Source: a virus
IMG/VR virus record: IMGVR_UViG_3300046519_000312
Location: 1-20,860 of that record
Length of the DNA stretch: 20,860 nt
Reading direction: 5' to 3' (one strand)
In this document: piece after piece, positions 3,087-20,820 of the stretch
Numbering within the stretch: the first letter of the stretch is position 1
Layout of the letters: every line of letters starts with the position of its first letter
Notes under the pieces: generated by a model
Database searches by the model: none
Told to the model about the DNA's origin: nothing
The model's input: only the letters and a program-made list of their open reading frames with translations
Program-made: the position numbers and the translations under genes

Positions 3087-4148
3087 CTACTTATTCAGCT
3101 GCGGCGCTTTCTCCCCCGCACTTAACATCGCAGACCTTACCAAATTACTCAATCGCTCCGACCGCTCTGTATTAGCAGAACAATTCAGGTGGTAGTTCGT
3201 GTCAAAAAAATAACTTGCCGGAAAAAAGAAGTCGGTTGGCCCACCGATAACTGGTATACCGCGCACTTCTAGCTCTCTCCATATATAGCTGAGCAGCGAT
3301 TGATATTTTTCCGATCGCGTCGTGTCGTCATCAACTTGAACCGGCGCGATTACAAATACACTAACCCCACGGGATCTCAGAGCATCTACCGCCTGCTTCA
3401 GTAAAGCGATGGAGACTGGACTAACCTTCGAATACTTCGAGACGCTGTACTCTGAACCATAAATTGCCGCACGTTTGCCACAGGTGTTTCGCATATCCCC
3501 GTGCGTACTTATGTTTACATATTGATAAGAAAATTCTGTCTGAGCACTCGAAAACTTTTGATAGTATTCAAGCGTTTCTTTAGGAGGCAGTAAAACCCTC
3601 ATAGGGTTCTGCCTCAGGATCTCGCCCCTTTCAAATTTAGCGTTGATATTCCGATATAGGCTTGAAGGAGAAACAGCTTTTATATATCTAACCTTATTAG
3701 AAATACTCAACTGATCAAAATATCTGTGATCCCACGCGACAATTTGATCCACCATCCAATCCTGTGGGGCTCGATAATCTTTAACATAATAGTCCCAAAC
3801 AAAAGGGAAAACTACAACGTCGCCGCTACGCGCAGTGCGCAATGCCACATCTAAATGCCAATCAAGCGGGAGACCTCCGTGCAATCCGAGATTCACCACG
3901 GGCATATCTAGACGCGTTTCAATTAGCTCGCTATCCATACCAAATAAAACATTTGAGTCACCTAATAGCAACACTCTATTGCCTTTAGCTTTGATTGCCG
4001 CATCTTCTTTCAAAACTAACCAGTTCGACAAATCATAGGAAGACGGAATCGGCGCCCCAAATTGATAACTAAACGCGGCGCCATACAGCGCCACGAATAA
4101 AATCATAGTTACGGCGGAGGCAATCACAAATTTTCTAAATAATGTCAT
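3087..4148 (-). CDS. SGNH-hydrolase/AlgJ-like O-acetylation partner, membrane-anchored
   Basis: I place the start at ATG 4148, two bases after the MBOAT stop, giving 353 residues. The frame also opens upstream (to 4232), but that would run inside the MBOAT gene. The protein has one N-terminal membrane anchor (about residues 8-26) and an extracytoplasmic domain with SGNH motifs: 'LLLGDSNVLFG' (GDSN, nucleophile Ser65), 'VNLGLHGG' (about 85-92) and a C-terminal 'FDTNYHLN' with the Asp316-x-x-x-His320 pair. This matches proteins of the AlgJ/AlgX/DltD type, which work with an MBOAT partner: the MBOAT passes acyl groups across the membrane and the SGNH protein transfers them to a glycan. The coding DNA is clearly A/T-richer than the tail genes. 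The acceptor is unknown; O-antigen or another surface polysaccharide is likely. Confidence 0.85.
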   Translation of the reverse strand: MTLFRKFVIASAVTMILFVALYGAAFSYQFGAPIPSSYDLSNWLVLKEDAAIKAKGNRVLLLGDSNVLFGMDSELIETRLDMPVVNLGLHGGLPLDWHLDVALRTARSGDVVVFPFVWDYYVKDYRAPQDWMVDQIVAWDHRYFDQLSISNKVRYIKAVSPSSLYRNINAKFERGEILRQNPMRVLLPPKETLEYYQKFSSAQTEFSYQYVNISTHGDMRNTCGKRAAIYGSEYSVSKYSKVSPVSIALLKQAVDALRSRGVSVFVIAPVQVDDDTTRSEKYQSLLSYIWRELEVRGIPVIGGPTDFFFPASYFFDTNYHLNCSANTERSERLSNLVRSAMLSAGEKAPQLNK

Positions 4149-4150
4149 AA

Positions 4151-5653
4151 TTAAAACTGGAAGTATAGAAATGGGCTTGTAGAGACAGTCCCAAAGGTTG
4201 ACAAAATACTGGCTCCCATCAAGGCAACACATATGACCGCAGAAGATATGCAGACTGCAGAGCTCACCTTATGCCCCTCTACCCCATGTACCTGCAGTCG
4301 ATTTTCCAGCAGATCCAAAATTTCATAAACGTTGGGAAAGCACCAGATCACAAACATCGACACCATCAGATAACCAATAAAAAGAAACGCGCTTTGGCCT
4401 TTGAAAATAGATACCCATGCGGCGTCCGCTTGCAAGCCTGCCATGCTACTGACAATTGAAACCGCAGCATGAATATCCTCTGCGCGGAAAAATACCCAGG
4501 CTATGACCACTATAGAAAAGGTAAAGAGGACGCTAAGTGGCACGCTTAAACTACTAGGCAGGCATTTCCCGACTCCAGTTCTTCCTGCAATTTTTTGGAA
4601 AAGGTGATTAATGCACAGATAACCCCCATGGAGTGCACCCCAGATTACAAATGTCCAATTCGCCCCGTGCCAAAGGCCACCCAAAAGCATCGTAAGCATT
4701 AGGTTGACTAGTCGTCGCGTTTCCCCGTGGCGATTGCCGCCCAACGGAATATAAAGATAGTCACGCAGAAACTGTGACAGCGTCATGTGCCAGCGCCGCC
4801 AGAACTCTATGATGTTCTGAGCTTTGTAAGGCGAGTTGAAGTTTATTGGTAGCTTGATACCGAACATCATCGACAGCCCTACGGCCATATCCGAATATCC
4901 AGAAAAGTCAAAGTAAATCTGAATGGTATATGCTAGCGCACCGGTCCAAGCGATGAAAAAACCGATAGTTTCTCCTGCGGATGCTGCATCGAATACAGGA
5001 TCCGCGAAGGCACTGACTGGATCGGCAATCAACAGTTTTTTACTTAGCCCTACCGCAAAAAGAAATATACCTATGGTTAGATTACGTGACCGAACCTGGT
5101 ACACCTCGGGGTTGCGAAACTGCGGCATCATTTGCCCGTGATGCAATATTGGACCGGCTATCAAATGCGGAAACCAAGTAACGAAAAGCAGATAGTGCCA
5201 AAAACTATACTCTTTTGCCTTCCCTCGCCAAGCATCTACTAAAAATGCGATCTGCGTAAATGTAAAAAATGAAATCCCGAGCGGCAGAACCAAATCAAGT
5301 ACGGGCATGTGCGCCCCCGTGGCTCTTGAAATTTCACCCAAAAAGAAATCGGTGTACTTATAGAAACAAAGAAGAACCAAGTTCCCAACAACACCAACAA
5401 CCAGAGAAGCCTTCGCTAGAACAGTAGAACCTTCTCGATAACGCGCAGTTATGTACCCAACGGTATAATTGAAAAGAATGGAGCCAAGTAGCAATGGTAC
5501 GTAAGTTGTACTCCACCATCCATAGAAGAATACCGACGCCGCTGCAAGCCAGACGGCCGCTGCCTCGCGACCTATAAAGCGAGCGATCACGAAAAATCCA
5601 GCAAACACTAATGGCAGGAAAGCGAAAATAAACTCGAAGGAAGTGAAGAGCAT
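4151..5653 (-). CDS. MBOAT-family O-acyltransferase (AlgI-like)
   Basis: A 500-residue multi-pass membrane protein, the usual length for AlgI/DltB/PatA-type enzymes. Visible family features: 'FPHLIAGPILHHGQMMPQF' (161-179), 'IYFDFSGYSDMAVGL' (246-260), 'FWRRWHMTLSQFLRDYLYIPLGGNR' region (284-308) and 'GGLWHGANWTFVIWG' (325-339) with the conserved His329 regarded as catalytic in AlgI. It should move acetyl groups from cytoplasmic donors towards the periplasm for transfer to a polysaccharide. The ATG at 5653 has a weak ribosome site (AAGG) and lies inside an inverted repeat. The gene is followed after two bases by its SGNH partner. The A/T-rich composition and a terminator behind the pair suggest later acquisition into the phage genome. 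It has no role in virion assembly that I can infer. Confidence 0.9.
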   Translation of the reverse strand: MLFTSFEFIFAFLPLVFAGFFVIARFIGREAAAVWLAAASVFFYGWWSTTYVPLLLGSILFNYTVGYITARYREGSTVLAKASLVVGVVGNLVLLCFYKYTDFFLGEISRATGAHMPVLDLVLPLGISFFTFTQIAFLVDAWRGKAKEYSFWHYLLFVTWFPHLIAGPILHHGQMMPQFRNPEVYQVRSRNLTIGIFLFAVGLSKKLLIADPVSAFADPVFDAASAGETIGFFIAWTGALAYTIQIYFDFSGYSDMAVGLSMMFGIKLPINFNSPYKAQNIIEFWRRWHMTLSQFLRDYLYIPLGGNRHGETRRLVNLMLTMLLGGLWHGANWTFVIWGALHGGYLCINHLFQKIAGRTGVGKCLPSSLSVPLSVLFTFSIVVIAWVFFRAEDIHAAVSIVSSMAGLQADAAWVSIFKGQSAFLFIGYLMVSMFVIWCFPNVYEILDLLENRLQVHGVEGHKVSSAVCISSAVICVALMGASILSTFGTVSTSPFLYFQF

Positions 5654-5961: not shown

Positions 5962-6900
5962 TCAGCCTCTTGTGAGAACAGTGAGGACAGTCGAGCTAAG
6001 GGACCAAGTCGCGGTGAAACCTGCCGGTGCAAACCCGTAGACCGATGCGAAATGGTATCCATCACTTGCAAAGGTGGCCGGGACCTGAGTCGTGATGGAA
6101 ACGCCTTGCCCAGCAGTTACAGTGGCAAACGCAGTGGCATACGACGAGGCGTCAGTATAAAGCGCTGTGTTCACGGAGCCCGCGGTATTGATACTTGCGT
6201 TCACTGGGCTACTCATGAATACGGCCTCGTTACCCCACGCCAAGAACTCTAGGCGTTCCGATGCGCTGATTTCCACCATTGTGCTGCTGGTGGTTGACCG
6301 GTTCGCCGCGAATCCGGAGCTTCCGCCGATAGTCTGGCGATTGAACCAATTCAGGCAGAAGCGCTGCTGCTGCGAATTGACGAACTGAATCGTGGCATTA
6401 GTCCGGATCATGCCGACCAGAGATCTAGTCGCATCTCCAGATTTTTGCTCAATGCCAGTCGTGCCGGTTGTATGCCCAATGGTCGAAAGCTCCAGCGTCA
6501 TCGTGCCAGAGTTCATAAAGGTGTAAACGTAATAGACCGTCGACGCCGCGAGGCTAGCGTTACTGATCGTTATACCCGCTGCCGGCACCTGTTGTGGTAC
6601 ACCGTTGATAATCAGGTTGTTGCCGTCGTACGGGGACAGCTTGATCGACGTGGAAGAAACGATGCTGAGTCGGCATTGACCGTGCCCTGACTTTGCAATA
6701 ATGGCTCTGATTGCGGCCAAGACCTGGTCTTGAGTGCCTTTCACTGGCGTGATGCTGCCGGCGCCCAGCACGCTCATCAGTTCTTCTTGCATGTCGTTCG
6801 CCCAAGACGCCGTAACTACGGTCGCTGGAACACCTCCGGCCGGATCGCCTTCGGTGAATTTTTTATCAACCGTTGCGCCAGGCCCATCGATTCTATGCAT
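5962..6900 (-). CDS. Tail fibre protein
   Basis: A 312-residue protein. Its N-terminus 'MHRIDGPGATVDKKFTEGDP' followed by 'GGVPATVVTASWANDMQEEL' is the standard baseplate-attachment segment of many Pseudomonas tail fibre and tail-collar proteins. The rest is rich in Thr, Ser, Asn and Gly with beta-strand character and no enzymatic motif, as in receptor-binding fibres that form trimers. The C-terminus ends 'SVYGFAPAGFTATWSLSSTV' then TVLTRG. It is short for a main fibre, which fits with part of the receptor-binding function residing in the gp48-adhesin fusion just upstream. TTAGGA lies nine bases before the ATG at 6900. The small gene at 5749-5958 follows immediately. Confidence 0.85.
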   Translation of the reverse strand: MHRIDGPGATVDKKFTEGDPAGGVPATVVTASWANDMQEELMSVLGAGSITPVKGTQDQVLAAIRAIIAKSGHGQCRLSIVSSTSIKLSPYDGNNLIINGVPQQVPAAGITISNASLAASTVYYVYTFMNSGTMTLELSTIGHTTGTTGIEQKSGDATRSLVGMIRTNATIQFVNSQQQRFCLNWFNRQTIGGSSGFAANRSTTSSTMVEISASERLEFLAWGNEAVFMSSPVNASINTAGSVNTALYTDASSYATAFATVTAGQGVSITTQVPATFASDGYHFASVYGFAPAGFTATWSLSSTVLTVLTRG

Positions 6901-6911
6901 ATCGTTTTTTC

Positions 6912-8717
6912 CTAAGGGAGAGTTAAGGCGAGGAGGTCGACGTCATTAACGCGCCGCGGGTAATAGCGAAGACTGCGCACTACTCCGTTAAGTTGGCGTA
7001 TCGTGTTGGATGCGCCCACGGTTAGAACACCGGCCCCCATGGAGGCTATGTCCAGTACGCCCGGTGTTGTGCGAACGACGCCGTTAAGAGCCACTGTCAC
7101 ATTTGCGCCGTCGAATGCGACTGCTAATTTCCCTGCCGTTAGGTCGCCGCCAAAGACGGATTGGGTAAAAACCCCACCAGAAGCAGTTCGAGTAACGGTC
7201 GCTACACCGCCGCTTTGCAGGTATACAAAGAGTTGATCGTTACCGTTATTTAGCGAGAGCAGATATCGTCTGTCATTCGCGGCAGCGGTCAACGGAGCAC
7301 GCGTGTAAATATCAACCACGAAGGTGCCAGCACGCAGGCCATACCACGACTGGGCCGCGTTCACCGTGGCTAGATCGATGGTGCGAATTACGATCGCGGC
7401 GGTGGTCGGAATGTAGGTGCTTGGGAAATCGCTCTCTTCTCCTTGCGGACACCCCAGCAAGATTCCGCCGATACCATCGCCCGCGAAGGTAACGCTGTTG
7501 TTAGTGTTGGACACCTCCAGGTTTGCCCCGGCCCCCGTGACACCGGCACCCATTGTGAAGGTGACGGAAACTCTGAACACGCCATCACCTACCGGGATAA
7601 TGCTGTTTTGTATCCCTGCTGCGTTTTGGGTGACCTCTCCCGTCAGGACATCGAAAATTACCCTACCGAGCAAGACGCCACCAGGCGCAACCCGGACGGA
7701 TAGTCGTTGGTAGGCCTCAGCTTTGGCGTACCAACTGAGAGAAACGGTCGACGCGGCCGTGAGGACCAGCGCTCTGCTTATGCTGTGTGCGCTGGAAACG
7801 GTCGACGGCGTGAACTTGAAGAAAGGGATGCCCTTGACGGTTCCGGCGCTGGCTATCGTTCCTTCATTTTTGATCCAGACAGCATTTGAAAGATCTTGGC
7901 TTTGGGTGTACCCGTTGGTTGAAGATGCCTCCATCAGCAGGCCTTCACGCTCCCCGCTGACCGGTGAGTAGTTGATTCCCATGGCACCGATTGCCAGTTG
8001 TTCTATAGCGCCTGCTGCGTTGTACCGAGTGCGGATCGATGACCGAGAAAAGTTCATGATGCTGGCAAGCGGAACGCTCTGTTGCGCTACCAGGTAGGTA
8101 TCCAGTGCAAAGTTCAGATCGAGCGAAGAGTTGGCATACGCGAAAATCGGAATAGTGTGCGCAGGGGCAAGCTGCCTGATCTTGCATTCAAGCGAACCAG
8201 TACCCCACGAACGTAGCGGTTCACCCACCGCGGAAAGCCCTGCGCGGAAAGCCAGCACAGTGGTTTCCGGACCGTTGACCTGCCAGGCGAACTGCCAATC
8301 CCCATTGGTGAATGCATCGCCCACCACGGAAACGCCAACTTTAAAAGGCCTGAACTCGGTGATGGTGACTTCGTAGCCAAGCGCCGCGGCGATGCTGGTG
8401 AAGTAAGCAATCGACTGACCACCCGTACTTGCTAGCTTGGTCAAAAGTGCATTGCGGCGCCCTTGGATCGTTTCCTCCAACACCCCGGAGCATCTGTCGG
8501 GCAAACCCGCCACTCGCTCCCAATCTCGCAGCAACTCAGTGGTTGTCGCGGGATTGGCTTCGAGCGGCATCGTGAAGCCCCTCTCGTCGACTCGAGCAAG
8601 CTCTATCGACATGCCGTCGAGCAAATCGTGGAGTGTGGTGCCTGGGTCGCGCGGGAATGCTTGACCGGGAGGGAGCAGCTGTTTTAGCTGCTCTCTGTAT
8701 TCGGCAGCTGTAGGCAT
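6912..8717 (-). CDS. Mu gp48-like baseplate protein fused to a large C-terminal adhesin
   Basis: The 601-residue protein has two parts. Residues 1-195 match the gp48/YmfQ (DUF2313) family: 'EYREQLKQLLPPGQAFPRDP' near the start, 'LLRDWERVAGLPDRC' (62-76), 'RRNALLTKLASTGGQS' (87-102) and 'RQLAPAHTIPIFAY' (181-194). In Mu this protein is about 200 residues and joins the baseplate wedge to the fibre. Residues 196-601 are an extension of two likely beta-sandwich units: an R..G..... 'EREGLLMEAS' / 'NGYTQSQDLSNAVW' segment like those in phage spike and fibre proteins, and a C-terminal concanavalin A/LamG-like domain ('GTFVVDIYTRAPL', 'RRYLLSLNNGNDQLFVYLQ', 'VRSLRYYPRRVND'). The extension probably binds a surface glycan. 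A ribosome site AGGGGG overlaps the gp47 stop. There is no visible frameshift, so the fusion looks genuine. Confidence 0.85.
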   Translation of the reverse strand: MPTAAEYREQLKQLLPPGQAFPRDPGTTLHDLLDGMSIELARVDERGFTMPLEANPATTTELLRDWERVAGLPDRCSGVLEETIQGRRNALLTKLASTGGQSIAYFTSIAAALGYEVTITEFRPFKVGVSVVGDAFTNGDWQFAWQVNGPETTVLAFRAGLSAVGEPLRSWGTGSLECKIRQLAPAHTIPIFAYANSSLDLNFALDTYLVAQQSVPLASIMNFSRSSIRTRYNAAGAIEQLAIGAMGINYSPVSGEREGLLMEASSTNGYTQSQDLSNAVWIKNEGTIASAGTVKGIPFFKFTPSTVSSAHSISRALVLTAASTVSLSWYAKAEAYQRLSVRVAPGGVLLGRVIFDVLTGEVTQNAAGIQNSIIPVGDGVFRVSVTFTMGAGVTGAGANLEVSNTNNSVTFAGDGIGGILLGCPQGEESDFPSTYIPTTAAIVIRTIDLATVNAAQSWYGLRAGTFVVDIYTRAPLTAAANDRRYLLSLNNGNDQLFVYLQSGGVATVTRTASGGVFTQSVFGGDLTAGKLAVAFDGANVTVALNGVVRTTPGVLDIASMGAGVLTVGASNTIRQLNGVVRSLRYYPRRVNDVDLLALTLP

Positions 8718-8725
8718 TGAGCCCC

Positions 8726-9784
8726 CTAGAAGCTGGAAAAGGTAAGTGTTCCCAACGTGGCCATGTGCCCGGTTGCATGAGGCACGTCGGCTGTCGGTGT
8801 GACGATCGCGTTATCTGCTTCGCCCGATGCTAGCGATACGGATTCCCGTAGACGGCTGATCAGGGTCGGCTCGCCTGGTTTCGAATCCCGCGCAATAAGA
8901 TCTGCAAGCTCGGCGGTGACGGCCGCACGGACGGAAGCGGTATTCGGCTGCAGCTTGATGGTCATGTTGAGGGGATCGGCTATGGGAGCGGCCACAAACA
9001 CTTCGGCGGTGACCGGGCGCCGGGCATTAATGTAGGCCTGGGCTTCCGCCACTTTGGCCGGTGCTGGAATGATGTCTGGTAGGTCGTCACAGACAAACAG
9101 GACCGTAACGGTACCGGCGCCCATCTGGCGCGGGTAGACCCAAACCCGGGTTACGCCAGCGACCTCCAAGGCCCACATCTGGTAGTCAAAATCCGCGCCG
9201 CCGTGTGGTGGTTGCTGAATACGCGCCAGCAGCCTGGCCAACAGTCGTTGATCCGACTCCGTGTCAACGCCGCCTTCGATCGTGGTCGCCGTCGTCCCTG
9301 TCGACTGGACGCCAGCAATCGGGGACAAAAGGAAGATCGGCAGTCCTATTCCAAAATTTCCGGCCTCCCCCGCCTCCAAGGCCAGCACGGGTACAGACAA
9401 CGGACTGGCACCGAACATCGCATCGCCGAGTACCTTGTACTGAACACCATCCTGCCGCTGCACAATAGTGCCATCGACGATGGTTGAACCCGGGACACCG
9501 GAGAATGCAGCCTGGCCGCTGGCGAAACCGGCGGTTTTTCGGGTGATCTTCCAGATTGCGGCCCAGCGCTCGAGGTACTCTTTTTCGGCCGTGTCGATGA
9601 TCGACTGCTTGGCGATCCAATCCAGAAAACCATAGAGCAGATGGACCGCGCCGGCCTCAGACTGGCCAATGATTCCGAGCAGTGAGCGCCGCAGCACCGC
9701 GCCGTCGACGCCCGTTACCCGGCTGCTGATGTCGGTAATGACGCGGTCGATCAGCTCGGTCAATGTTGGTCGAGCAAATGGCAT
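8726..9784 (-). CDS. Baseplate J-like wedge protein (Mu gp47)
   Basis: A 352-residue baseplate wedge subunit. I start it at ATG 9784, which overlaps the gp46 stop as TGATG; the frame extends 33 bases further but has no ribosome site there. The sequence 'MPFARPTLTELIDRVITDIS' then 'FLDWIAKQSIIDTAEKEYLERWAAIW' region and 'SDQRLLARLLARIQQPPHGG', 'VTRVWVYPRQMGAGTVTVLF' are typical of Baseplate_J (gpJ of P2, gp47 of Mu, gp6 of T4). It would form the ring of wedges around the hub that triggers sheath contraction. Neighbours gp46 and gp48 are in the Mu order. Confidence 0.92.
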   Translation of the reverse strand: MPFARPTLTELIDRVITDISSRVTGVDGAVLRRSLLGIIGQSEAGAVHLLYGFLDWIAKQSIIDTAEKEYLERWAAIWKITRKTAGFASGQAAFSGVPGSTIVDGTIVQRQDGVQYKVLGDAMFGASPLSVPVLALEAGEAGNFGIGLPIFLLSPIAGVQSTGTTATTIEGGVDTESDQRLLARLLARIQQPPHGGADFDYQMWALEVAGVTRVWVYPRQMGAGTVTVLFVCDDLPDIIPAPAKVAEAQAYINARRPVTAEVFVAAPIADPLNMTIKLQPNTASVRAAVTAELADLIARDSKPGEPTLISRLRESVSLASGEADNAIVTPTADVPHATGHMATLGTLTFSSF

Positions 9785-10251
9785 CAGGCGGACCTCTTCG
9801 CGGCTTGAGCCGCCCATTCATAGTTGAAGCGATAGCGAACCGGAGAACCGGTTGGCCGGAAAATATCGACGAGGATCAACATCCAGCCTTGGGCGACGAA
9901 CTCCGCAGCCACCTCAACGCGAGTCGCGACCAGGTCCTCCACCATCCAGGCCAGTGCCTCTCGGCAATACTGCTGAGCACGGCCAAGGACTTGTGGAAGT
10001 TGCTTTTCACGCGCCAGCAACCAAAGCAGCGATCCGGTCTGGTTAGAAGTCGTCGCATTGCTGATGTCACCCCAGTAGCCACGCAGATCATCCTGCGGTA
10101 GCTCAACAGGGATCTGTTCAGCGCTGGCACGGCGATCGGTGAAGAGGCTGATGATGACTGCCGTCTCCAGGCCGTCATCACGCGCCAAATCGAAACCCGA
10201 CAACACCAACTCTCCGCCGTTTTCGGTCATTACCATTGCGGCATCAGCCAT
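9784..10251 (-). CDS. Baseplate protein Mu gp46 family (gp25-like wedge)
   Basis: A 155-residue protein of the phage GP46 family. It begins MADAAMVMTENGGELVLSGF and contains 'DDGLETAVIISLFTDRRA', 'RGYWGD' and 'GSLLWLLAREKQ', the segments that define the family: 'WWgD', 'GSrLWLL' and a following charged helix. It is the functional counterpart of T4 gp25/P2 gpW, which attaches the wedge to the sheath initiator. The start ATG overlaps the stop of the spike gene (TGATG at 10251), so the two are probably translationally coupled. No anomaly is visible. Confidence 0.9.
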   Translation of the reverse strand: MADAAMVMTENGGELVLSGFDLARDDGLETAVIISLFTDRRASAEQIPVELPQDDLRGYWGDISNATTSNQTGSLLWLLAREKQLPQVLGRAQQYCREALAWMVEDLVATRVEVAAEFVAQGWMLILVDIFRPTGSPVRYRFNYEWAAQAAKRSA

Positions 10252-18837: not shown

Positions 18838-20820
18838 TTACGCGCCCGGGTTCTTGTACGCGCCGCGGTAATCGATCCAGCCAGCACCGAATACTAGACG
18901 GGCCTTGATCTCCATACCGTCGACTTCGAAACCTTCGCGGGTTTCGGTGAAAACGCCCTGCTCGCCTTCGAGGTATGCGTATTCAAAGGTGTCGACGGCT
19001 CCCGGTGCGGCATACAGGTACCACTGGTTACCAGTGATGCGAGCATCCACGATCACGGTCAGCGAGGCGTTGCGGACATCGTTGATGTCGGCGTTCTTCG
19101 CTGGCACGTAATTGGAACTGGTGAACTGGTACGCCTCGAGCTCTTTGTCAGGACCGACAACCAGGTATTCCGGCGCCAAGTTGAGGAACTCGCCCGCCTT
19201 GCTTTTCTGCTTGCGCATCGCAGCACGAGCTGCAGCCAGTGTGGTGGTGTTGATGGCGCCGCCACTCCCTGCAACGTTGCCGTGGGCCGCGTCGAAGAAC
19301 GGAGTACCGTCAGTGAAGTTGGGGTTGCCGAGCAGGAGAGCCCAGACCACGTTGGATTCAGTCGCAGCAGCGGCATTACCCAGCGCTGCCGGGATGCGAG
19401 TGAGCGCGCCCAGGTCATCGTTCACGATGGTTTCCCAGGTGATCGCGATGATCTTACCGAACTTGGCGACCTTGATCGGGGCGCCATCTTCCGTCAGCGT
19501 GCCGTACTTGTACTCGCCGTGCTCCTTGACATGTTCCAGCGCAGCAATGTCGCCCAGCGCGGCGCGAGTCACGGCACGGAAGTCCGGCACAGTGGTCTGA
19601 CGGCCCAGTGGACGCCAGGTCTGCGGCGCGTTGGTGTAGGCATCGCGCAAGGTGCGATTGACGGTGCTGCCCAGCAGCAGCGGGAAATCGCTGGTCGTGT
19701 GCATGCCGGCAGCCCGAACAGCCTGGCGGTCGCAACCCAAGGCTGCGCGAGCCAGTTCCTGCGGGGTCATGCCACGGGCATTACCACCGGACATCTCGAC
19801 GAACTCACGAGCCATGTCCACCAGGCGCATGCCACGGAACTCCCGGCCGGCATCTTCGAGTTTGATTTTGGCGTCGCAACGGTGCAGCAGAGCGTTCTGC
19901 ATGGCTTCGCGTTTAGCGGTCAGAACAGTCTGGTCTTGTCCGCCAGTCACCACAGTTTGCTGGCTGTTGCGGGTGTTCGGCTGATCCTTTGCCTGGCGCT
20001 CAGCGAGCTTGTCGATCAGCGCAGAACTGGCATCGGCAACCGACACGCCGCGCTCGATCAAGTCATCGACAAAGGCTTCGTCATTGAGACTCACCTTGCG
20101 AGCCATGGTGCGGATGCTCAAACTGCGTTTACGCTCAGCCTCAGCAGATTCACGGCGCAGGGTTTCGTCGGCCGCGCGTTTCGCTTCTTCCGCCGCGCGC
20201 TTCTCTTCTTCGGTCATTGCATCTTCCTCTTGGGTCGTAGGCACGGCGGCCGTTGTTCCGGTTGGCTGGTTTGCCTCCCGAACTTCAAAAATGGTGTTAA
20301 AGCGCTGCCCTTTGTATTCGTCGGCAGTCTTGGCGCTGCGGAACTTGCCGCCGTCGTCGAAGCCGATCGGAACCAGTGAAAGCTCCATGGGCTCCCAATC
20401 GACGGCGCGATAGGTCGGCAGCTTGTCGTCGGCGTTTTCGGTCACCTCGTATCGGTGCACCGCATAGCCGACGCTGATGTTGCGAAGGATCCCGTCCTGA
20501 ACGTCGCTGAAGATTTTCTCGACGTCATCGCGCTTACTGAATCGGACCAAGGCACGGCCCTCTGCCCCATCGATCCAGGCCTTCTCCACGACGCCAATCA
20601 CGTCGTCGAGTTCGTAGGAGTTATGAGCGTTCAGGAATGGGGCGCCGTTGTTGAGGCGATCCAGCCGGACCGCGTCCTCGCTGACCTCCAGTTCTTCCAT
20701 GTAACTGCCGACATCCCAAGACCAACGGCGCCCCTTTGCGCCAGTGGTCCAGGTCAGCTCGACAGTCCGCGCGTCAACGTCTACCGATCCCGCACGCACG
20801 GCGGCGCGCAGGCTGAGCAT
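18838..20820 (-). CDS. Fused prohead protease and major capsid protein
   Basis: A 660-residue single frame that carries two functions usually encoded by two genes. Residues 1-160 form an HK97-type prohead protease (S78): His66 in 'PFLNAHNSYE', Ser116 in 'ILRNISVGYAVHRYE' and the 'DWEPMELSLVPIGFD' end segment. A charged linker follows (about 195-250, rich in Glu, Ala and Lys: 'EEKRAAEEAKRAADETLRRE'), with the look of the scaffold (delta) domain. From about 300 to the end is the capsid domain: 'HTTSDFPLLLGSTVNRTLRD', 'HVKEHGEYKYGTLTEDGAPI', 'GKIIAITWETIVNDDLGALT' and 'GTPFFDAAHGN', resembling gpT-like/HK97-type capsids. The protease would cut itself and the linker away during assembly. The ATG at 20820 has no strong ribosome site and lies seven bases after the preceding stop. 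Fused forms like this are known in some Pseudomonas phages. Confidence 0.9.
   Translation of the reverse strand: MLSLRAAVRAGSVDVDARTVELTWTTGAKGRRWSWDVGSYMEELEVSEDAVRLDRLNNGAPFLNAHNSYELDDVIGVVEKAWIDGAEGRALVRFSKRDDVEKIFSDVQDGILRNISVGYAVHRYEVTENADDKLPTYRAVDWEPMELSLVPIGFDDGGKFRSAKTADEYKGQRFNTIFEVREANQPTGTTAAVPTTQEEDAMTEEEKRAAEEAKRAADETLRRESAEAERKRSLSIRTMARKVSLNDEAFVDDLIERGVSVADASSALIDKLAERQAKDQPNTRNSQQTVVTGGQDQTVLTAKREAMQNALLHRCDAKIKLEDAGREFRGMRLVDMAREFVEMSGGNARGMTPQELARAALGCDRQAVRAAGMHTTSDFPLLLGSTVNRTLRDAYTNAPQTWRPLGRQTTVPDFRAVTRAALGDIAALEHVKEHGEYKYGTLTEDGAPIKVAKFGKIIAITWETIVNDDLGALTRIPAALGNAAAATESNVVWALLLGNPNFTDGTPFFDAAHGNVAGSGGAINTTTLAAARAAMRKQKSKAGEFLNLAPEYLVVGPDKELEAYQFTSSNYVPAKNADINDVRNASLTVIVDARITGNQWYLYAAPGAVDTFEYAYLEGEQGVFTETREGFEVDGMEIKARLVFGAGWIDYRGAYKNPGA

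Follow-up and report, generated by a model that had tools for sequence, protein, structure and literature searches.

In phage Mu, gp48 is wedge protein 3 of the baseplate, present once in each of the six wedges; the tail fibre is docked by its loop 133-155 (excerpts of PMC11915804). Carbohydrate-binding modules have been described on a wedge 3 protein of Bacillus phage Vp4, where Gp119 has CBM folds that are missing from the Deep-Blue homologue, and a GFP fusion of Gp119 decorated B. cereus cells (excerpts of PMC11406892). The wedge proteins gp45 of Pseudomonas phage E217 and gp46 of phage Pa193 attach the fibre through a loop; both appear in cryo-EM models of the baseplate with their C-terminal domain built, E217 gp45 over residues 1-504, and this domain is given no receptor role in the available parts of these reports (PMC10329688, PMC11042391). 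Two further virion proteins enter the comparison, for which we likewise draw on parts of the published accounts: the head-spike fibre Rcc01080 of RcGTA, reported to bind capsular polysaccharide (PMC10218006, PMC7296036), and gp17 of Shigella phage Sf11, with a large C-terminal appendage whose function its authors describe as unknown (PMC12724387).

Here we analyse a stretch of viral DNA of 20,860 nucleotides (IMG/VR virus record IMGVR_UViG_3300046519_000312, positions 1 to 20,860; hereafter the window), in which a gp48-type protein is continued by an extension of 406 residues. We find that this Mu-type baseplate wedge protein has a real, recurrent and exchanged module, lectin-like by its predicted fold. 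There are precedents for its parts: wedge 3 has binding modules in Vp4, and the inner domain of the extension is known from a wedge protein of E217 and Pa193. The gp48 fusion itself, taken over 80% of its length, is new relative to the cultured phage and plasmid records compared, as 0 of 110 matching phage records and 0 of 70 matching plasmid records cover at least 80% of the 601-aa query. A limited literature search, which does not prove absence, found no published gp48/YmfQ/DUF2313 fusion.

As in the window, the wedge gene of E217 and Pa193 (PDB 8env, 9b45) lies directly upstream of the fibre gene, and its product has a C-terminal domain homologous to the inner domain of the extension. Unlike the window protein, however, only chain residues 182-403 align, and the N-terminal part of E217 gp45 is PF11041 (DUF2612) and not PF10076; by Pfam, the same domain is therefore found on two different wedge proteins. 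The E217 gp45-type protein is also conserved in the phage collection (at least 90% identical in 292 of 393 matching records), whereas the domain is exchanged in the lineage of the window. Vp4 Gp119, compared by description only, is similar in having extra carbohydrate-binding-type modules on wedge 3 that are not present in all homologues, but the phage belongs to the Herelleviridae, its hosts are Gram-positive, and the folds are CBM16 and Xyn10B-like; by analogy, it may serve as a functional precedent for the fusion. Rcc01080 has a homologous inner domain but sits on the capsid and has no gp48 part, and Sf11 gp17 (PDB 9occ) carries a homologous inner domain on a tail protein that is not a fibre, in this case the distal tail protein of a siphophage. 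In the evolved Dit proteins of siphophages, a carbohydrate-binding module is likewise grafted onto a structural tail protein, although anchor and hosts differ from those of the window.

A gp48 gene with a long extension in a Mu-type tail operon

A first-pass annotation, made from the sequence, had described the gene at 6912-8717 as a gp48 baseplate protein extended by about 400 residues of adhesin-like sequence. The coordinates are correct and enclose one frame of 601 codons without an internal stop; the annotation had left out the strand, which is minus. It sits in a Mu-type tail operon, preceded in order by genes for the sheath, the tape measure, a gpN-like DNA circularisation protein, gp44/GpP, gp45, GP46 and baseplate J (gp47), and followed by those for a 312-aa fibre, an MBOAT acyltransferase and its weakly SGNH-like companion, then a GH19 endolysin and a protein of the DUF2514 family. 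The Mu-type order gp44-gp45-gp46-gp47-gp48-fibre is present. The features discussed below are as follows.

6912..8717, minus strand: gene of gp48 fused to the putative adhesin, one open frame of 601 aa plus stop, with orthologues in L002-L004 and L020
8133..8717, minus strand: Mu gp48 / baseplate wedge 3 domain, residues 1-195, with the presumed fibre-docking loop (PF10076, phrog_203, Foldseek)
7989..8132, minus strand: start of the module, residues 196-243 (LDLNF...FxR strands), read as N-terminal strands of a ConA/LamG-like sandwich
7359..7988, minus strand: inner CBM-like jelly-roll, residues 244-453 (homology and fold match), the swapped segment being about 224-446
6915..7358, minus strand: remainder of the predicted ConA/LamG/CBM40-like sandwich, residues 454-601 (fold match to the NanC lectin domain)
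5962..6900, minus strand: separate tail fibre, 312 aa, with conserved N-terminus MHRIDGPG... and variable C-terminus (PHROG and relatives)
8726..9817, minus strand: gp47 / baseplate J, partner wedge protein (PF04865, E 2.3e-66)
4151..5653, minus strand: MBOAT O-acyltransferase of the neighbouring glycan-modifying cassette (PF03062, E 6.5e-38)
3087..4232, minus strand: partner of the MBOAT protein, possibly SGNH-like (weak; PF19040 at E 0.2 only, nothing at E 0.01)

The assignment of the first 195 residues to gp48 is well founded: PF10076 (Mu gp48) covers residues 10-195 (E 9e-33, 113.7 bits, against a curated cut-off of 37.4), and the baseplate wedge family phrog_203 matches at E 2.1e-69. A Foldseek search also retrieved Mu gp48 (9ki1_a, E 2e-7), a tentative fold match given the block pLDDT of about 39-74 in this part of the model. 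The separate tail fibre that the annotation had placed just downstream is also there, and its N-terminus is kept in 70 of the 81 loci examined. The nearest cultured phages, which are Bordetella phages, share only short DNA stretches with the window (11% of an 8-kb query at 69%). In a survey of the phylum of a Desulfovibrio genome, PF10076 was found in 3 of 198 genomes, a count that is uninformative on fusions.

The fusion is recurrent and optional

Scanning IMG/VR with a gp48 profile gave 349 relatives, the best 80 of which were kept. Among these, gp48 is short in 66 (191-224 aa) and long in 12, and two sequences are cut off too early; the long forms measure 577-610 aa, apart from one of 419 aa and one of 563 aa that are both ended by the contig. 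Full-length relatives of the 601-aa protein are found in L002, L003 and L004 (L018 is the same contig as L003). We compared 11 fused junctions, from the window and 10 other contigs, with 8 short ones. Short gp48 ends in ...FAYG(D/E/A)-stop, with the ATG of the fibre gene a few bases on, while the fused frames read through here and continue as ...LDLNF/LDLLF..., with the fibre ATG placed after their own, later stop. Since the end of the short form is the very point at which the fused frames read on, the extension is inserted exactly at the C-terminus of gp48.

The first-pass annotation had raised the concern that a sequencing error at about 8100-8140 might join two genes. An assembly or sequencing artefact of this kind is ruled out, to near certainty, by the identical, uninterrupted junction in the 10 other contigs and by dN/dS values well below 1: between the window and L003, we obtained 0.08 for gp48, 0.12 for residues 196-222 and 0.11 for the C-terminal part, and residues 196-222 gave 0.06 in the comparison with L002. 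Judged by these substitution ratios, gp48, the junction and the C-terminal part of the intact frame are under purifying selection. When the fused state is mapped on a quick tree built from 79 gp48 domains, it takes two changes (gains or losses), both forced by well supported branches. As a separate observation, there is a third, distant lineage of fused gp48 (L088:2487-4316, L089:6001-7830), whose nearest gp48 relatives (the L081 group) lack the fusion and encode a GDSL tail protein separately.

We also asked what lies between gp48 and the fibre. Counting the window, there are 81 loci: 43 with short gp48 directly before the fibre, 17 with short gp48 and other sequence in between, 13 with fused gp48, and 8 with short or cut gp48 and no fibre seen. 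Four intervening genes were scanned (L073, L074, L081, L022), with matches to GDSL lipase in two of them (below the cut-off in L022), to SASA carbohydrate esterase in one and to a right-handed beta-helix in one. As these relatives have a separate tail gene between gp48 and fibre, the extension fills that slot. Searched at E 1e-3, the ORFs of these loci contain the module only in fusion with gp48.

Homology and predicted fold of the extension

Residues 198-599 match positions 356-761 of the 801 positions of phrog_5939 ('tail protein') at E 7.5e-40. This match lies near the C-terminus of the family, and the whole extension is therefore a module already found in other phage tail proteins. A second family, phrog_11600, matches residues 263-453 (E 2.6e-12). 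The resemblance of one part of the extension to phage spike and fibre segments, proposed in the first-pass annotation, was borne out in single-sequence comparisons, where residues 226-468 match Rcc01080 (E 7.4e-16) and residues 263-450 match Sf11 gp17 (E 9.6e-16). A profile built from four extensions and run against PDB sequences retrieved Rcc01080 (E 3e-36), Sf11 gp17 (1.2e-29), Pa193 gp46 (2.2e-9) and E217 gp45 (2.4e-9), and the C-terminal domain of the Pbunavirus-type wedge protein matches phrog_5939 over residues 193-449 (E 2.9e-27). One homologous domain thus ties together four virion parts, including the RcGTA spike with its reported polysaccharide ligand and the Sf11 gp17 appendage, described as being of unknown function in the parts of the reports we draw on; the E217 wedge part is tied in by the shared domain, with no receptor role given to it in the parts available.

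The whole protein gave a poor model (mean pLDDT 62.8), whose fold matches were used as leads and which was replaced by an AlphaFold model of the extension only, built with 19 aligned sequences (pLDDT 86.0, pTM 0.84). This model is almost all beta and has two domains, a CBM-like jelly-roll (244-453) and a ConA/LamG-like sandwich (196-243 plus 454-601). The jelly-roll (extension residues 49-258, protein residues 244-453) superimposes on residues 182-403 of Pa193 gp46 (Z 22.0, 3.4 Å, 200 residues) and on E217 gp45 (Z 19.9, 3.5 Å, 200 residues). The ConA-like part superimposes on the lectin domain of NanC (Z 16.1, 2.4 Å, 162 residues), on AbnA (Z 16.1, 3.2 Å, 187 residues) and on R. gnavus CBM40 (Z 15.4, 2.7 Å, 164 residues). 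The fold neighbours of the model include CBM40, sialidase lectin domains and laminin G; several are ConA-like domains of clostridial neurotoxins, and those matches reflect the common fold only. The module as a whole matches predicted phage proteins, for example the 414-aa A0A6J5NSP0, named 'Concanavalin A-like lectin/glucanases superfamily' (TM 0.81/0.80). The structure prediction and fold search called for in the annotation thus returned a carbohydrate-binding-like fold for residues 196-601.

The alignments to ConA-type domains span extension residues 1 to 406, and one of them pairs 183 residues though only 148 follow residue 258. Because some alignments pair more residues than follow residue 258, the N-terminal strands seem to be part of the ConA sandwich, and the jelly-roll is apparently inserted into this predicted sandwich, judging by alignment ranges and counts and not by coordinates. 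The annotation had described two beta-rich units. Both are present, but they do not simply stand in a row, as the spike-like unit is apparently nested inside the LamG/ConA-like one. Its comparison of the latter to LamG also holds in part: the predicted ConA-like beta-sandwich supports it, but at the level of sequence, the match to PF13385 (E 0.0033, 18 bits) falls under the cut-off of 27.6. The inner domain of L029 matches Pfam CBM_4_9 weakly and under the cut-off (E 7.7e-4).

Both domains are exchanged among relatives

Comparison of gp48 across relatives had been suggested as a way to see whether the extension varies, and it proved to be not only optional but also exchanged. Between the window and L003, amino acid identity is 0.92 over residues 1-225, 0.30 over 226-446 and 0.86 from 447 to the end, and none of 50 shuffles gave as good a three-segment fit. 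DNA identity follows the same pattern (87.7% over residues 1-195, 41.1% over 223-453, 81.5% over 454-601), and synonymous differences (pS) are 0.37, 0.86 and 0.47 over these three segments. Synonymous sites are thus saturated between conserved flanks, which argues that the inner part was replaced by recombination and did not arise by fast vertical change or selection. The outer part, too, was replaced, as L002 and L020 show at 439-580: amino acid identity is 0.96 over residues 1-438, 0.47 over 439-580 and 1.00 from 581 to the end, and DNA identity falls from 98.1% in gp48 to 80.2% in the inner part and 56.3% in the C-terminal part. L021, L023, L024 and L027 form a second fused group, in which gp48 blocks are 0.87-1.00 identical, blocks in 276-425 0.18-0.25 and later blocks 0.57-1.00. 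Such exchange of both domains among relatives is as expected for a receptor-binding module.

The neighbouring acyltransferase cassette

The MBOAT gene and its overlapping, weakly SGNH-like partner (window 3087-5653) are sited between the fibre and the lysis genes. Close to the corresponding place, AT3, AT3-SGNH or other proteins are encoded in relatives (L018, L020, L023, L027, L045, L054, L056, L059). Near fused gp48, we found acyltransferases of the MBOAT (window), AT3 (L018, L027) and AT3-SGNH (L020) types, that of L020 being located past the lysis genes. For loci with at least 3 kb downstream, a cassette was counted in 5 of 5 with fused gp48, in at least 11 of 27 with short gp48 directly before the fibre, and in 0 of 6 with an intervening gene. 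L023 is counted as positive though its 765-aa protein has no Pfam match and thus no recognised acyltransferase; L002, L022, L025 and L064 had matches but were excluded as fragments or weak. The comparison of fused and short forms (Fisher p 0.043) is not trusted, both on these grounds and because the query set was biased, with 7 of 9 query proteins taken from fused loci. Acyltransferase genes also occur beside short gp48, and the cassette is therefore independent of the extension. In other prophages, acyltransferase genes serve serotype conversion. A link between adhesin and cassette is plausible ecology and does not in itself speak for specificity, and the separate esterase tail genes and O-acyltransferases in the same prophage group might possibly reflect a contest of acylation and deacylation.

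Possible function of the extension

We consider it likely that the extension of 406 residues acts as an adhesin for the host surface, one that can be exchanged and that is carried at the periphery of a simple baseplate of the Mu type. With it, the phage family probably has, in addition to the tail fibre, a second and exchangeable means of gripping sugars on the bacterial surface. The position of the extension in the virion, the type of its ligand and its role in adsorption we infer as follows. The gp48 part would sit in the wedge and dock the tail fibre, as is known for Mu, and, if the copy number is as in Mu, about six extensions would ring the fibre attachment points. Most likely, the module would bind, in a weak and multivalent manner, a polysaccharide of the bacterial surface such as O-antigen, capsule or exopolysaccharide, and would keep the virion close to the cell until the fibre meets its own receptor. 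The lineage may change specificity by swapping the inner and outer domains separately; relatives either have no such module or use this genomic slot for an esterase or beta-helix tail protein encoded on its own. The proposal of the annotation that an adhesin-like module is attached covalently to the wedge protein, beside the fibre, is upheld by the carbohydrate-binding-like predicted fold and by the optional presence and exchange of the extension. A second, exchangeable, surface-binding-like module is thus covalently placed on the fibre-anchoring protein in a family of contractile-tailed prophages, and the fibre gene by itself may not suffice to read their host range.

Some points count against the adhesin reading. 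ConA-like and jelly-roll folds also have roles that do not involve sugars, and the LamG match in the sequence is under the cut-off. In E217 gp45 and Pa193 gp46, the same inner domain is given no receptor role in the accessible parts of the reports and is not exchanged in this way. An alternative would be a mainly structural extension that packs on the wedge, on a neighbouring wedge or on the resting fibre and stabilises the extended baseplate, with the lectin-like folds as a relic; in the E217 baseplate, the corresponding domain of gp45 is ordered, as far as the available text goes, and the conservation of that protein in the phage collection would fit. Of the 80 gp48 relatives, however, 66 lack the extension, and the inner domain falls to about 20-30% identity in groups where gp48 remains at about 90% or above, which is unlike a packing interface, and we regard a mainly structural role as unlikely. 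An enzyme (depolymerase or esterase) instead of a binder is suggested by the GDSL, SASA esterase or beta-helix genes that occupy the same slot elsewhere. Neither Pfam nor PHROGs gave a hydrolase match to the extension, though, and the fold neighbours listed are lectin- or CBM-like, those from enzymes lying outside the catalytic domain according to entry titles and ranges; catalytic activity thus seems very improbable.

A special case of the adhesin reading follows the suggestion of the first-pass annotation that the adhesin recognises a host glycan in its unmodified form; by acylating that glycan, the MBOAT cassette would shield the lysogen. The window, L018, L020 and L027 indeed have both the extension and a nearby acyltransferase. 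This part of the proposal is not supported, however: at least 11 of 27 loci with short gp48 have such cassettes as well, and the contrast with 5 of 5 fused loci is biased, includes L023 with its lack of a Pfam acyltransferase, and depends in L020 on a gene past the lysis genes. We consider such specificity rather unlikely, and return to an adhesin for surface polysaccharide in general as the preferred reading. More tentatively, and with some doubt, the nested module, or the inner domain alone, could be a general polysaccharide plug that has been grafted onto the gp48 wedge protein, the Pbunavirus wedge protein, a siphophage distal tail protein and the GTA head spike, and that in this lineage would form a two-slot system with independently exchanged domains, coevolving with the O-acyltransferase cassettes. 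If true, this would also account for the appendages of Sf11 gp17 and E217 gp45.

Additional observations

The capsule-binding spike domain of RcGTA has homologues in the Sf11 gp17 appendage (PDB 9occ) and in the wedge protein of Pbunavirus, in its C-terminal part (8env/9b45; L121:10156-11670). The LDLNF...FTRAS module is found in several unrelated phage proteins (L102-L120), with apparent repeated copies in L102, L112, L113 and L120. Lastly, at 18838-20820, the window contains an ORF of 660 aa. Its C-terminal half (357-657) is a major capsid protein of the Phage_capsid_4 family, and its N-terminal half resembles what we take to be a fused prohead protease.
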